DNA of 64,000 bases from Tistrella mobilis (lineage in GTDB: Bacteria; Pseudomonadota; Alphaproteobacteria; Tistrellales; Tistrellaceae): the NCBI RefSeq assembly GCF_039634785.1, contig NZ_JBBIAB010000004.1, forward strand, positions 248,001 to 312,000, written 5' to 3'. The position numbers and the translations under genes were made by a program. The notes under the pieces are model-generated. The model was not told the DNA's origin. It did no database searches and saw only the letters and a program-made list of their open reading frames with translations. Positions 3,579 to 18,300 of the stretch are shown here, one piece after another (position 1 is the first letter of the stretch; every line of letters starts with the position of its first letter).

Positions 3579-3655
3579 GCTGCCGGCCTTCAGATTTTGT
3601 TAAACACATCGGACTAGCATCGGATCCGTGTCGGGTGTTCGGGCGAGGTCGCCCC

Positions 3656-4018
3656 ATGCCCCGCAACCGTTGCGAGACCGCCCTTCCGATGACCACACCC
3701 AGGTTGAAGCTGGTATCCCCAGCGCCCGACATTGCCGAGGCCACCGACGGCAATGTTCTTGTCCTGCCGGAGAAGCCTCCCCGGCAGAAGCGGTCCACCA
3801 CGCTGCGTTTCGACCTGCCGCCCGGCAACGGGGTCAGGTGGGTCGCCCGACGGAAGATCGAGGTCGTGGCGGCGGTGATGGCCGGTGCCGCCGCCCTCGA
3901 CGAGATCTGCCGGCGCTATGCCCTCAGCCTCGAAGAGTTCGAAAGCTGGCGCCAGACCCATGGCGCCGAGGCCAGCCGGCTGATCGCCAGCCGTTCCCGC
4001 CGCGGACGCAAGGGTTGA
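3656..4018 (+). CDS. sciP: SciP-like CtrA inhibitor (DUF1153 protein)
   Basis: In Caulobacter, SciP binds CtrA and blocks its activation of target promoters at the start of the cell cycle. The 120-residue product has the DUF1153 core at about residues 60-115: GVRWVARRKIEVVAAV, then EICRRYALSLEEFESW, a helix-turn-helix-like segment. The N-terminus is longer than Caulobacter SciP by about 40 residues and is less conserved. I start at the ATG at 3656 because GCGAGG lies 7 bases upstream; ATG 3689 and GTG 3635 are alternatives. The place between flgE and fliF matches what I recall of the Caulobacter order. The family call is firm; the inhibitory role here is inferred. Confidence 0.85.
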   Translation: MPRNRCETALPMTTPRLKLVSPAPDIAEATDGNVLVLPEKPPRQKRSTTLRFDLPPGNGVRWVARRKIEVVAAVMAGAAALDEICRRYALSLEEFESWRQTHGAEASRLIASRSRRGRKG

Positions 4019-4211
4019 TCTGGCCACACGATCCCGGCAAATGCTTACCTTTCGTTAAGACATCGATCCTCCGCCCGCCATCTCCCCCCTGCCGGCGCGG
4101 TCCCGGTCCACGGATATCATCGCCGTGGATTTCCTTGCATTTTCTACAAAAACAAGACATTGCCATTGCGTTGAACCACAGTATGATCCAGGCGGAAATT
4201 TTTGCCGCCCA

Positions 4212-4230
4212 CCCGGCAAAATCTGCCGGG
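4212..4230. promoter_or_regulatory. ftr-like palindrome upstream of fliF, candidate FlbD site
   Basis: CCCGGCAAAATCTGCCGGG has perfect 7-bp arms around AAATC. The same 19 bases recur at 15323-15341. It ends 2 bases before a CtrA-like box and lies about 170 bases before the fliF start. FlbD, encoded at 9303, is the expected binder. In Caulobacter, FlbD represses fliF through an ftr element. Confidence 0.65.
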
Positions 4231-4232
4231 CA

Positions 4233-4247
4233 TTAACCTTCTGTTCA
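4233..4247. promoter_or_regulatory. CtrA-like box upstream of fliF
   Basis: TTAA, seven bases, TTCA. This is one mismatch from the CtrA consensus TTAA-N7-TTAA. It lies in the 379-base gap between sciP and fliF (4019-4397), directly next to the ftr-like palindrome. The rest of that gap shows no gene; a lone half-site CCCGGCAA is at 4033-4040. Confidence 0.5.
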
Positions 4248-4397
4248 CCAAAGATCGCGTAAACAGGGGTGGGCGGTGCACTGCATCGCCCGGCTTCTTC
4301 GTGCGTGCCGATCCCCGGACCCGGGGTCAGGCATCGCGGGAAGAGGATCGTCGGGCGCCCCGATCGGGGCATTGCGAGACGGAGTGGAACGGGTCTC

Positions 4398-6104
4398 ATG
4401 GCGGATACGCTGAAGGCCTGGATGCAGGCACTGAAGGGATTGGGGCCGGCGCGGCTTGCGGCACTGGGTGCCGTGGCGGGCGGTCTGCTGATCTTCGCGG
4501 TCTTCCTGGCCACCCGGCTGGGCAGCCCGACCATGGGCCTGCTCTATGGCGACCTCGACACTGCCGATGCGGCCTCGGTCGTGGCCGAGCTGGAACAGTC
4601 GGGCGTGCCCTACACGCTCAGCCCCGACGGCCGCCGGATCATGGTGCCGCAGGATCAGATCGCCCGGCTGCGCCTCACCCTGGCCGAAGGCGGCCTGCCC
4701 AAGGGCGGGTCGATCGGCTACGAGATCTTCGATCGCTCCGAAGGCCTGGGCACCACCGATTTCGCCCAGAACGTCAACCTGGTCCGCGCGCTGGAAGGCG
4801 AGTTGCAGCGCACGATCATGACCATCGATGCGGTTTCGGCCGCCCGGGTCCATATCGTGCTGCCGCGGCGGGAACTGTTCTCGCGCAATCAGGCCGAACC
4901 CACCGCCTCGATCGTGGTCAGCCCCAAGGGCGGCCGCAGCCTGACCCAGGGCCAGGTGCGGGCCATCCAGCAGCTGGTCGCGGCCGCCGTGCCGGGGCTG
5001 CGCCCGGAACGGGTGGCGATCGCCGATGACCGCGGCACCCTGCTCGCCCGCGGCGACGGCGGCACCGAAGGCGCCCCGGGTGCCGCCCTCACCGCCGCCG
5101 AAGAGGTGCGCCAGAACGTCGAAAGCCAGCTGCGCGCCCAGGTCACCCGCCTGATCGAGGAATCGGTCGGCCCCGGCCGGGTGCAGGTGGAAGTCCATGC
5201 CGATATCGACCACAACCGGGTGACCATCTCGCAGGAAACCTTCGACCCCGATGGTCAGGTCATCCGGTCGCGCCAGAAGAACAACGAAAGCGAACTGTCG
5301 ACCGAGGCCGGCGACGAGGCGGTGACCGCGTCGAACAACATCCCCGATGCGCAGCAGGGCCAGGGAGCCGGCGGCAGCCGCACCCAGTCGACCCGCGACG
5401 GCCAGACGGTCAATTACGAAATCTCGCGCACCGTGCGCAACGAGGTCCGCGAGGGCGGTGCGATCAAGCGGCTGTCGGTGGCGGTGCTGGTCGACGGCAC
5501 CTATGTCACCGCCGATGACGGCACCCAGACCTATCAGCCCCGCACCGCCGACGAGATGGAGCGCCTGACCCAGCTGGTCCGCTCCGCCGTGGGCGCCGAC
5601 GATCAGCGCGGCGACCGGATCGAGGTGGTGAACCTGCCCTTCGCCCGCAGCCAGGAGACGGTGACCGATGCCGGCCTGCTGGGGCTGGAGACCAGCGACT
5701 ATATGCGCATCGCCGAAATGGTGGTGCTGGCGATCGTGGCCCTGCTGGTCATCCTGCTGGTGCTGCGGCCGCTGGTCGGCCGGCTGGGCCCGCAGCCCGC
5801 GGGTGCCGCAGCCGGTGCCGGCGGCATGGGCGGCGTCGGTGGCGTGACCATGATCCCCGGCCCCGACGGCACCCCCATGGCCGCCCTGCCCGGCCCCGAC
5901 GGCAACCCGGTTCCGGCCCTGGCCGGCCCCACCGCCGAACGGGCGCTGGCCGCCGCCATCGAAAGCAGCGAGGCGATGATCGACATCAGCCAGGTCGAGG
6001 GCCGGGTGCGGCAGTCCTCGATCCGCAAGATCGCCGAAATCGTCGACCGCCATCCCGAAGAAGCACTGGCCGTGATCCGTTCGTGGATCCGGGAAGAGGA
6101 TTGA
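4398..6104 (+). CDS. fliF: Flagellar MS-ring protein FliF
   Basis: FliF builds the MS ring, the base of the flagellum in the inner membrane. The 568-residue product has a first membrane segment at about residues 17-38. The YscJ/FliF ring-building motifs follow (TMGLLYGDLDTADAASV, then LPKGGSIGYEIFDRSEG, VLPRRELFSRNQAEPTASIV). A second membrane segment lies at about 435-455. The C-terminal tail ends with the FliG-binding region (RQSSIRKIAEIVDRHPEEAL, RSWIREED). The ATG at 4398 begins the MADTLKAW sequence typical of FliF; the frame stays open to 4269 but that part is not FliF-like. fliG follows after 6 bases. Confidence 0.97.
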   Translation: MADTLKAWMQALKGLGPARLAALGAVAGGLLIFAVFLATRLGSPTMGLLYGDLDTADAASVVAELEQSGVPYTLSPDGRRIMVPQDQIARLRLTLAEGGLPKGGSIGYEIFDRSEGLGTTDFAQNVNLVRALEGELQRTIMTIDAVSAARVHIVLPRRELFSRNQAEPTASIVVSPKGGRSLTQGQVRAIQQLVAAAVPGLRPERVAIADDRGTLLARGDGGTEGAPGAALTAAEEVRQNVESQLRAQVTRLIEESVGPGRVQVEVHADIDHNRVTISQETFDPDGQVIRSRQKNNESELSTEAGDEAVTASNNIPDAQQGQGAGGSRTQSTRDGQTVNYEISRTVRNEVREGGAIKRLSVAVLVDGTYVTADDGTQTYQPRTADEMERLTQLVRSAVGADDQRGDRIEVVNLPFARSQETVTDAGLLGLETSDYMRIAEMVVLAIVALLVILLVLRPLVGRLGPQPAGAAAGAGGMGGVGGVTMIPGPDGTPMAALPGPDGNPVPALAGPTAERALAAAIESSEAMIDISQVEGRVRQSSIRKIAEIVDRHPEEALAVIRSWIREED

Positions 6105-9302: not shown

Positions 9303-10832
<1,530 letters not shown>

Positions 10833-15230: not shown

Positions 15231-15302
15231 CCCGTCCTGACGGGTCTGGTCCGGCAGGCAAGGTCCGACTGGGGGCGTTTTCTGCACGAAACTTGCGTGG
15301 CA

Positions 15303-15318
15303 CCCGGCAATAATTGCC
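15303..15318. promoter_or_regulatory. Second, weaker ftr-like site before the giant fliK-like gene
   Basis: CCCGGCAATAATTGCC has inverted arms GGCAA and TTGCC centred at 15312. Its centre is 20 bp from that of the perfect palindrome at 15323-15341, so both lie on the same face of the helix. That is the pattern of paired enhancer sites. Confidence 0.5.
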
Positions 15319-15322
15319 CTGA

Positions 15323-15341
15323 CCCGGCAAAATCTGCCGGG
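15323..15341. promoter_or_regulatory. ftr-like palindrome, identical to the fliF site
   Basis: CCCGGCAAAATCTGCCGGG, the same 19 bases as 4212-4230. It ends 26 bases before the start codon at 15368. I find no clean -24/-12 promoter in this gap: the GG and GC pairs here are spaced 8, not 10, because they belong to the palindrome. Confidence 0.65.
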
Positions 15342-15367: not shown

Positions 15368-18300
15368 ATGGTCGAGATCATCCCGCCTGCCATCCCTGCC
15401 GCCCTGATCCGCACCTCCGTCGACGGCCGCCCGGCCGGTGGACGAGAGGGGGCGACGGGGCGTGACGGCGCGGGCCAGCGACGCGCGCCGGATCAGGGCC
15501 AGCCTTCCCAGACCCCGGCGGGCGATCCCGGCCGGACGGGCAGCCGGCAGGACGGCGCCGTGCAGCGCGATGCAACCGGCGGCCGCAACCCCGGCACCGG
15601 CGGTCAGCCGCCCGGCCAGCTTCCCCGCCGGCCCGGGGACGCATCGCCCCCCGATCCGCGCAGCCCCGACGGCCGGGCCGCCACCACCGCCGATGGCCGG
15701 CCCGTCCGCCAGCAGGGCACAACCGGCCTCCAGGGATCCGAGACCGGCCGCTCCGGCGATCCCCGCCTGACCGGCCCCGACGGCACGGCCCGTGCGACGG
15801 CCACGACCAGCGGGTCCGAGGTCCGCCAGCCCACACCGCCCGAAGACACCGCCGGCCGGATCGCCCTGCCGGTGGTGCTGCGCGGCCGCGACGAGGCCGG
15901 CCGGCCGCTGGTCCGCACCCCGCTCGGCCAGCTGGCCCTGACCGCGGCGCCGCGCGACGGCACGGCGCCCGCCTCGGCGCCCGCCTCTGCCACGGCGGCC
16001 ACGCCCGCCCCCTCGGCGCCCGCCTCGGCACGGGCCGCGCCGCCTGCCGCCCCGGCGCCCTCTTTCGCCGCCGGCCTGCTCGCCGATGACGGGGTTCTGG
16101 CACGGGTGGACCATGCCTCGGTCGGCCGCCTGCCCGATCATCGCGGCCGGGTGCCGGTCACCCTGCTCGATGTCGCCGGCCGCGCCTTGGTCGAGACGAT
16201 GGGCCTGCCCGCCCCCGATCCCGAAGCCCCCGCCCCCGAGACGGCCGCGACGCCGCAGCGCGACCGCGCCCTGCTGGCGCTCCGCCTATCGCCGCCGCTG
16301 CCCCATCCCGCCGCGACATCCTCGGCCGCGACATCCCGGGCCGCCACATCCTCGGCCGCGACTACCTTGGGCGAAACCACCGGCACGGCGCCCCGGCCCC
16401 AGCCGACCGGCGTCGACCCGGTCGCCCGGCTGGTGGAATGGGCCGCCCGCGCACCGGCCGGCACCGGTCTCACCCTGCTGTCGGTGGAACTGCCGGCCCC
16501 CGTGCCCGGACGGACGGCCGCGACACCGGCGCCCCTCCCCGGCCCGGTCACACCGGCGCCGGGACCGTCGGGCCAGCCTGCCTCACCCCAGCCCCTGCCG
16601 ACCGCAGCATCACCAGGCAGCGCCACATCGGCCCCCCCGGCGCCGGCAGGCTCGCCATGGCCTGCGACCGGCAGCACGCCCCCGCCTGCATCCTGGCCGC
16701 CGGCCGGCCCGATCGGCGCCCCGAGCGGCGCCACATCGATGCCGGCTCCTCCACCGGGTCCGGCCGCGCCTGCCGTCCCCGCACCGGCGCCGGCCCTGCC
16801 CGGTGCAGCGGCACCCGATCCCAGCCCGATGCAGGCCGGCGCCTGGCAACAGCCCGCGCCCGCGACGGGCTGGCAGGCCGATCATCCGACAGCAGGCCCG
16901 CTGCCGCCCCGCATGCCCGCCCCCCTGCCATCCGATGGCCGGGCACCGGCGCCCGCGGCCGGGCCGCAGCCATGGACATCGACACAGCCGTCGCAGCCGT
17001 CAGCCCCCGCGGGCAGTGCGACCGCCTGGCTGGCGCAGCTCCCCGAAGCGCCCCGCGCCGCCGGCCCGACATTGCCGTCTCCGCCATCCGCGCCCACCGG
17101 CACACCAGCGGCTGCGCCGCCATCGCCAGGCCTCGCCCAGGGGCCACAGGTCACGCCGGAAACCGCACCAGGGCCGCAACCCGCGGCACCGGGCCGGCCG
17201 GCCGTGGCAACGCCCGAAACCGCCTGGCGCCCGGCATCCCCCGCGCCGCAAACCCCGGCCCGGGGGATCCCGGCGCCGGCCATGTCCGCAGCGCCGTCGC
17301 CAGAGGCTGCACAGCCCCCGCCATCCGCCGCCCGCCCGCCGCAGGCGCCGCCCGCCATGCAGAGCCCGTTCACCACGGCCTCCGCACCAGAGGCACCCGT
17401 CGCCGGAGCCCCGCATGCCCAGGCGCCGCATGTCCAGGCGCCACCTGCCGCGGCTGCCAGCGCCGGTGCTCCACCTGCCGGCGCTCCGCCTGCCGCGACG
17501 CCCGCCTTCGGCCCGACGGCCGCCGTCTCGGCCGTGCCCCAACCGACGGTGCCGCAGCCTGAAGCGGCCATGCCGGCAGACCCTGCCGTTCAGTCGTCGC
17601 CGGCCCAGCCCCCCGCCCCCGCAGCCCTGCTGGCCGACGCAGCCGCCCCGCGCGTGCCCGGCCCGGCCGGACCCCCCGTCCTGCCGACGCCTGATGCCGC
17701 GGCCCATGGCGGCGATCCGACCCGGCCTGCCGCCAGCCCGCCGGCCCAGCTCCCCTCCACGCCGGCCCCGTCCGTGCAGGCCCCGTCCGTCCAGCCACCG
17801 CCAATCCAAGCCTGGCCCGCCACGGCCCCGACCACCGGCGCGACGGTCCCCCATGCGGAGCCGACCCCATATCAGACGCCCGCCCAGGCACCGGCGTCCC
17901 AGCCCCACCAGCCCGATTTGCCGCGCCCGGCGCCGCCGCAGGCGTCGGCGGCCGGGTTCCAGCCGCTCAACGTTCCGACGGGCGGGTGGCCGGCAGAGGA
18001 TGGGGCGGCACCGGTGGCCCGGCCGCTCTGGGCACCGGCGCCCGCACCGGCGGCGCCCCCGCCGGCAGCGGCCCCCCTGCCGACCTCCCCGGCGCAGCCC
18101 GCCGCGCCGACCACAGCCGTGCATGCGGGGCCCACCGCCCCCATCCCGGCCGATCCTGCATCGACGATGGCCACCGATCCGGTCGCGGCCGGCGAGGATC
18201 TGGCCGGCGCCCGCGAACTGGCGCAACGCACCCGGGCGCTGATCCTGGCCGAGGCCGGCCGCAGCGCCCGCCCGCCTGTCGATGATGCGCCGCCGGTCCG

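Follow-up and report, generated by a model that had tools for sequence, protein, structure and literature searches.

The fliF promoter of Caulobacter is the model for the handover from early to late flagellar genes by a single regulator. The region before fliF in Tistrella mobilis carries sites of the same kinds, which raises the question of whether they are arranged, and would work, as in Caulobacter. The window (the whole analysed stretch of 64,000 nucleotides) contains flagellar genes whose order, read from Pfam matches, is fliK (C-terminal part), flgD, flgE, sciP, fliF, fliG, a gene in the fliH position that itself has no Pfam match, fliN, motA, flbD and flhA, followed by an SRP54-type GTPase gene (flhF by position) and a MinD-like ATPase gene (flhG by position). 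The flbD gene lies on the same strand as fliF, fliG, the fliH-position gene, fliN and motA and is presumed to share a transcript with them. The genome also has a ctrA gene (E 1.6e-101) and a fliX gene, the latter at G000:C16 81797-82210 on the plus strand and divergent from the adjoining flgI; ftr-like sites occur near G000:C16 81572-81633, between these two genes. The 379-bp gap between sciP and fliF is home to both ftr-like sites and the CtrA-like box (Table 1). The first-pass annotation, which had placed neighbouring ftr-like and CtrA-like sites in the fliF control region just after sciP, is borne out in this by the sciP-like gene upstream and by the presence of ctrA, flbD and fliX in the genome.

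Table 1. Genes and sequence elements of the fliF region and related features (window coordinates; offsets relative to the CtrA-like box).
Feature	Position	Strand	Details
sciP-like gene (DUF1153)	3635-4018	+	E 1.9e-17; start codon uncertain
u site, second ftr-like palindrome GGCGGAAATTTTTGCCGCC	4191-4209	none	one arm letter off; core 4193-4207; offset -40; predicted centre -72
U site, ftr-like palindrome CCCGGCAAAATCTGCCGGG	4212-4230	none	core 4214-4228; offset -19; predicted centre -51
CtrA-like box TTAACCTTCTGTTCA	4233-4247	+	predicted -39 to -25; register after parts of PMC6180460
Predicted -10 element GTAAAC	4259-4264	+	A 4261 expected at -11; predicted start 4271-4272
fliF	4398-6104	+	Pfam PF01514/PF08345; ATG at 4398
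flbD, sigma-54-type activator, presumed ftr-binding protein	9303-10832	+	Pfam Sigma54_activat, HTH_8
Tandem ftr-like pair	15303-15341	none	second half an exact copy of the 4212 19-mer; before ORF at 15368

Both the palindrome ending at 4230 and the TTAA-N7-TTCA motif beginning at 4233 are found exactly where the first pass had put them, but their claimed overlap is wrong, as two bases (4231-4232) separate the 19-mer from the box. The palindrome is of the ftr kind, with perfect arms of 7 bp each around the 5-nt centre AAATC. The second ftr-like site, u, had been overlooked; it is spaced 21 bp from U, and the layout of the window is U plus a second site at offsets of exactly -19 and -40. The ftr, CtrA and sigma-54 patterns used in scoring are consensus forms, that for the CtrA-like box being TTAAC-N6-TT-N-A with eight scored letters. 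For the CtrA-activated fla2 promoters of Rhodobacter sphaeroides, parts of PMC6180460 give a distance of 23-24 nt from the CtrA site to the start, with A as the base at -11. In the window the box and the A stand in the register expected from these promoters, the start itself being predicted from the same spacing; the term ftr is absent from the main text of that paper. Around the pair lie further elements. A sigma-70-like TTGCCA-16-TATGAT at 4160-4187 (10/12; shuffle mean 0.1) would start transcription on the u site. A ten-pair hairpin at 4270-4292, near the chance level (0.5 expected), falls at the predicted fliF transcription start, is followed by a T-containing stretch and could shape the fliF leader. 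The U palindrome was considered as a sciP terminator and rejected, there being no T run behind it, and a terminator scan gave only the hairpin just described. On the minus strand, just upstream of sciP, another CtrA-like box TTAACAAAATCTGAA (7/8, window 3589-3603) would fit control by CtrA over its own inhibitor.

Comparison with chance separates the motifs from their combination. The CtrA-like box at 4233 is the single 8/8 match in 64 kb, and TTAA-N7-TTAA with at most one mismatch occurs three times in the window where 0.23 would be expected. The palindrome arms CGGCA-N5-TGCCG have five exact matches against 0.57 expected; arms alone are weak evidence, GC-rich palindromes being common in DNA of 69% GC. 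When the intergenic region was shuffled 5000 times, a pair at the U spacing (7/8 for both motifs) arose in 3 cases; 100 shuffles of the window gave none. The full 19-mer has four exact copies in the genome, and at up to three mismatches it gives 14 matches per strand, at 20 distinct places with neighbouring genes identified for a minority only, against 1 per strand for the reversed pattern.

Two of the exact copies precede a flagellin gene, and related sites precede a second flagellin gene and flgI. These late promoters have the same ftr-like sequences in tandem as fliF, but they differ from it in their predicted sigma-54-like matches (1-2 mismatches) near the ftr-like sites and in the absence of a CtrA-like box within 120 bp. 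The tandem pair at 15303 stands before an ORF of 1285 aa that is rich in Pro and Ala and has no Pfam match. A sigma-54-like match next to that pair (15282-15297) has three mismatches; since matches at this level are as frequent in the window as by chance (94 found, 106 expected), those with three mismatches, this one included, are given no weight. Other tandem pairs lie at C4:246335, where an ORF that lacks a Pfam match encloses the pair 1.7 kb ahead of the window, and at G000:C12:132540 and G000:C1:321157 (L006 and L007), near genes for a molybdopterin-binding-domain protein and GTP cyclohydrolase II, with no flagellar Pfam match. The last two are perhaps new FlbD targets or chance.

Within the genus, a block at about 4147-4296 is nearly invariant between the window, a genome of the same species (G149) and one of the same genus (G001), a comparison of three genomes from two species. 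This block includes U, u, the box and the presumed -10, with U and u invariant in the alignment; the stretch at about 4061-4146 has diverged in G001.

A wider survey covered the region upstream of fliF in 136 genomes with 89 family labels, three of which are those of the named Caulobacterales genomes. Under strict scoring at least 7 of 8 arm letters were required for an ftr-like site and at least 7 of 8 letters for a CtrA-like box. Such a box is present in 109 of the 136 regions, as against 21.7 per shuffled set; L046, with 43 bp of upstream DNA, is counted among those without one. The offsets of strict pairs in these regions peak at -19 (39 pairs), with 13 at -20, 8 at -18 and 17 at -40/-41, and again on the other side of the box at +24 (16) and +23 (6). 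There are 141 pairs in total, whereas dinucleotide shuffles give 0.95 per set, about 0.1 at the U position and 0.05 at the downstream (D) position. Perfect scores for both motifs, counted in 187 regions, fall at -19 (25), -20 (7), +24 (5) and -40/-41 (4), with one each at -36, -18 and -16. No strict pair was found at offsets from -15 to +19 among the 136 regions, an interval in which -15, -14, -5, +5, +6 and +14 are among the offsets without letter conflict between the motifs. Most ftr-like cores of the U layout end 4 bases before TTAA, and most of those of the D layout begin 9 bases past the box. Among U rows, taken one per family label, 27 of 44 have the A at box +28; among D rows, for which each named genome was added to the one row per family label, 27 of 28 have it. 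As this A is expected at -11, the start would be at box +39, and the predicted centres would then be -51 and -72 for the U sites and -8 for the D site.

Looser scoring sorts the 136 regions as follows: U alone in 40, U plus the second site in 26, D alone in 25, U together with D in 4, all three in 2, the second site alone in 4, neither in 27 and no CtrA-like box in 8. Strict counts of one region per family give, among 47 that could be scored, U in 21, D in 4, both in 1 and neither in 21. These derive from the 56 of 96 genomes in which FliF was found, less the same-genus G001, L040 (without upstream DNA) and six with partial or weak matches, which left 48, and one more was set aside as short. 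In the survey, 60 places came from among the matches listed, ordered by likeness to the FliF of the window, so that U-type relatives may be over-represented. Six regions score as both U and D (L042, L048, L062, L082, L178 and L184) and are possible intermediates of a switch between the two.

The pairing goes together with the presence of FlbD. Strict pairing is found in 0 of 24 FlbD-negative genomes and in 44 of 83 FlbD-positive ones, a set enriched in genomes without pairing; in the FliF tree the lineages that lack FlbD group together and are therefore not independent cases, which makes the correlation partly phylogenetic. A call of FlbD-positive required E of about 1e-93 or better, where a gap was seen in the list, and G069, called negative, is 78% complete. 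L046 is absent from this comparison, and the 80 genomes in the FlbD search include all 39 without clear pairing; outside that search strict pairing is found in 47 of 56 genomes. Weak pairing appears in 4 of the 24 FlbD-negative genomes when scoring is at its loosest. Ftr-like sites with an A/T-rich centre, anywhere in 400 bp, occur in 68 of the 83 FlbD-positive and 3 of the 24 FlbD-negative genomes. The latter lineages partly have other flagellar gene types. Of 61 genomes checked, 53 have FliX, that of the window being one of these; it was found in none of the 6 FlbD-negative genomes of the set. The recognition helix of FlbD, GNRTHAANILGISIRTLRNKL with near variants, is common to the protein of the window and nine others, four from D and five from U genomes; a tenth protein, that of G010, yielded no readable frame. 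Ten FlbD-positive regions of families f103, f105 and f128 are without clear layout (L083, L087, L089, L091, L216, L217, L243, L246, L249 and L250), though a perfect ftr-like core stands 233 bp upstream in L246 and 310 bp upstream in L249.

On a FliF tree of 82 rows made by a quick method, from which L040, L046 and L050 were left out, the U and D labels require four changes, two of which involve the both-site rows L048 and L082. Rows labelled D on this tree include L048, L082 and L178, which also score as U, and the U row L261 has a weak score and comes from an FlbD-negative genome. This suggests few switches between U and D, maybe one main one, the direction being unreadable from the tree.

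The named systems place the window more exactly. Caulobacter sp. AP07, Brevundimonas poindexterae and a Phenylobacterium genome all have the D layout, with the ftr-like site over the predicted -10 and start, and the Phenylobacterium genome has weak U scores besides. The best downstream ftr-like score is 3/8 in the window and 7-8 in these three. The Caulobacter crescentus fliF promoter with its ftr4 site, which CtrA activates and FlbD represses, is like that of the window in gene, box register, kind of ftr-like site and the presence of FlbD and FliX genes. The position differs: in Caulobacter, as read from sp. AP07, the ftr-like site is at +24 with its centre at -8, and in the window the sites are at -19 and -40. 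The position of ftr4, which we take to be about -8, agrees with the AP07 sequence. The earlier supposition of the same architecture as in Caulobacter thus holds for the parts, which match, and fails for their order, since the ftr-like sites of the window lie upstream of the box and that of the Caulobacterales downstream. Caulobacter sp. AP07 also has a sciP-like frame just upstream of fliF, as judged by eye.

Among 21 named loci from 16 further genomes the layout is D in 8, U in 0 and neither in 13. The D loci are those of Bradyrhizobium, Tardiphaga, Methylobacterium, Devosia, Cohaesibacter, two Hyphomonadaceae and, weakly, Thalassococcus, and the loci with neither include Roseibium, Hyphomicrobium, Sphingomonas, Novosphingobium, Erythrobacter and second fliF copies. 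Azospirillum ramasamyi and A. lipoferum 4B resemble the window in having ftr-like sites at -40 and -19 from TTAACCCTCTCTTCA, but their upstream neighbour is annotated as an opposite-strand helix-turn-helix regulator, and a sigma-54-like site lies downstream. A search of the open-access literature, with subscription journals mostly outside its scope, gave no title or abstract beginning in which ftr sites next to CtrA boxes are mentioned for an organism other than Caulobacter.

How the two proteins would act on one another at such a promoter can be read in several ways. The first-pass annotation proposed a direct clash of CtrA and FlbD; on this reading plain steric exclusion would make their binding mutually exclusive and competition would decide the switch. 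DNA-bound proteins of the FlbD and CtrA families usually cover a few bases past their motif, and with only 2 bp between the 19-mer and TTAA such a clash is conceivable, if unlikely. It is at odds with the lack of strict pairs at -15 to +19, where several offsets are free of letter conflict, with a spacing that is fixed to about 1 bp, and with the 8-9 bp that mostly part the box and the core in the D type. The clash is unproven, as no strict pair overlaps and the spacing is stricter than steric exclusion needs; these same two features, the lack of strict overlap pairs and a spacing held to about 1 bp either way, point instead to side-by-side binding in register. Slightly less likely again is a positive role for FlbD at fliF, either helping CtrA from upstream or serving as the enhancer-bound activator of a downstream sigma-54 start. 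Tandem sites 21 bp apart upstream of a promoter are the classical enhancer form, and a sigma-54-like CGGCGCGGAACTTGCA with two mismatches does lie 36-37 bases past the box in L181, L182 and L035 (two Azospirillum records and G051), in which the ftr pair would be in enhancer position and fliF may have two promoters. Such elements with at most two mismatches below the box are, however, confined to 3 of 69 U regions and 0 of 41 D regions (shuffled means 0.48 and 0.35), sets that include L261 (weak, FlbD-negative) and L287 (weak), and at three mismatches there are 5 U and 3 D regions against 2.2 and 2.5 in shuffles. FlbD being a repressor of fliF in Caulobacter also speaks against a positive role. 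For the window, a search of 4019-4397 gave no -24/-12 elements before fliF at three mismatches or fewer; a candidate sigma-54 start at 4270-4285 was rejected, as it has four mismatches, coincides with the hairpin and is of a kind that is not general.

Two further readings detach the sites from the CtrA-like box. The tandem ftr sites might mainly block another upstream promoter or read-through from sciP, and the sigma-70-like pair, conserved in the genus, stops only 3 bp before the u site; this reading leaves unexplained why other families keep the CtrA-like box at a constant spacing, and is judged improbable. That the palindrome is chance, a terminator or the site of another regulator than FlbD is hardly credible: palindromes of such GC-rich form are what a genome of this composition commonly contains, but the recurrence of the site, its constant spacing and its correlation with FlbD speak against such readings.

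The reading that appears just about probable from the arrangement of the sites is that they form a control element of the fliF operon which CtrA switches on and which FlbD shuts off from upstream sites beside CtrA. CtrA~P would turn on the fliF operon from the box, and the operon would supply FlbD. After FlbD has been freed by the FliX checkpoint, its dimers would fill U and u, next to CtrA and on a single face of the DNA, and would shut the promoter by contact with CtrA or by displacement of the RNA polymerase alpha subunit, FlbD meanwhile activating late sigma-54 promoters elsewhere. Caulobacter would achieve the same outcome with its ftr site placed across the box, over the -10. A repressor could work from both -51 and -8 and an activator hardly from -8, which makes negative feedback the simplest function common to both layouts. 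Passages of PMC3930126 and PMC3096577 describe FlbD as the repressor of fliF in Caulobacter, and we infer that this repression would carry over to the window from a system whose site is elsewhere. Centres at -51 and -72 are also usual activator positions, which counts against repression. The reading is weakened, too, by the 21 of 47 one-per-family regions that are of neither type under strict scoring, some of them with FlbD.

More tentatively, and with less confidence than is given to the control element itself, the upstream layout may be the ancestral and general early-to-late switch of alphaproteobacteria, in which FlbD, side by side with CtrA in helical register, would silence fliF by touching the bound CtrA. 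The Caulobacter layout at the -10 would then be a later relocation of the site by 43 bp, about four helical turns, across the box. The offsets -40, -19 and +24 are close to one lattice of 21-22 bp, which would put every FlbD site on the same side of the helix. If Rhodospirillales-like lineages branch outside the group of Caulobacter and the Rhizobiales, U first would be the simpler reading. The literature on the branching order of alphaproteobacteria is not unanimous, to judge from parts of PMC2877005.

Overall, the window has, as far as its sequence can tell, the parts of Caulobacter without the architecture of Caulobacter. What emerges is a promoter layout with a set order, widespread among alphaproteobacteria; the geometry first proposed for it has been corrected, and its mechanism is to be stated with caution. 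As 21 of the 26 one-per-family regions with clear pairing have the ftr-like site upstream of the box, 4 downstream and 1 on both sides, the way in which early flagellar genes give way to late ones may differ at the molecular level from the blocking of the -10, or may be more general than it.
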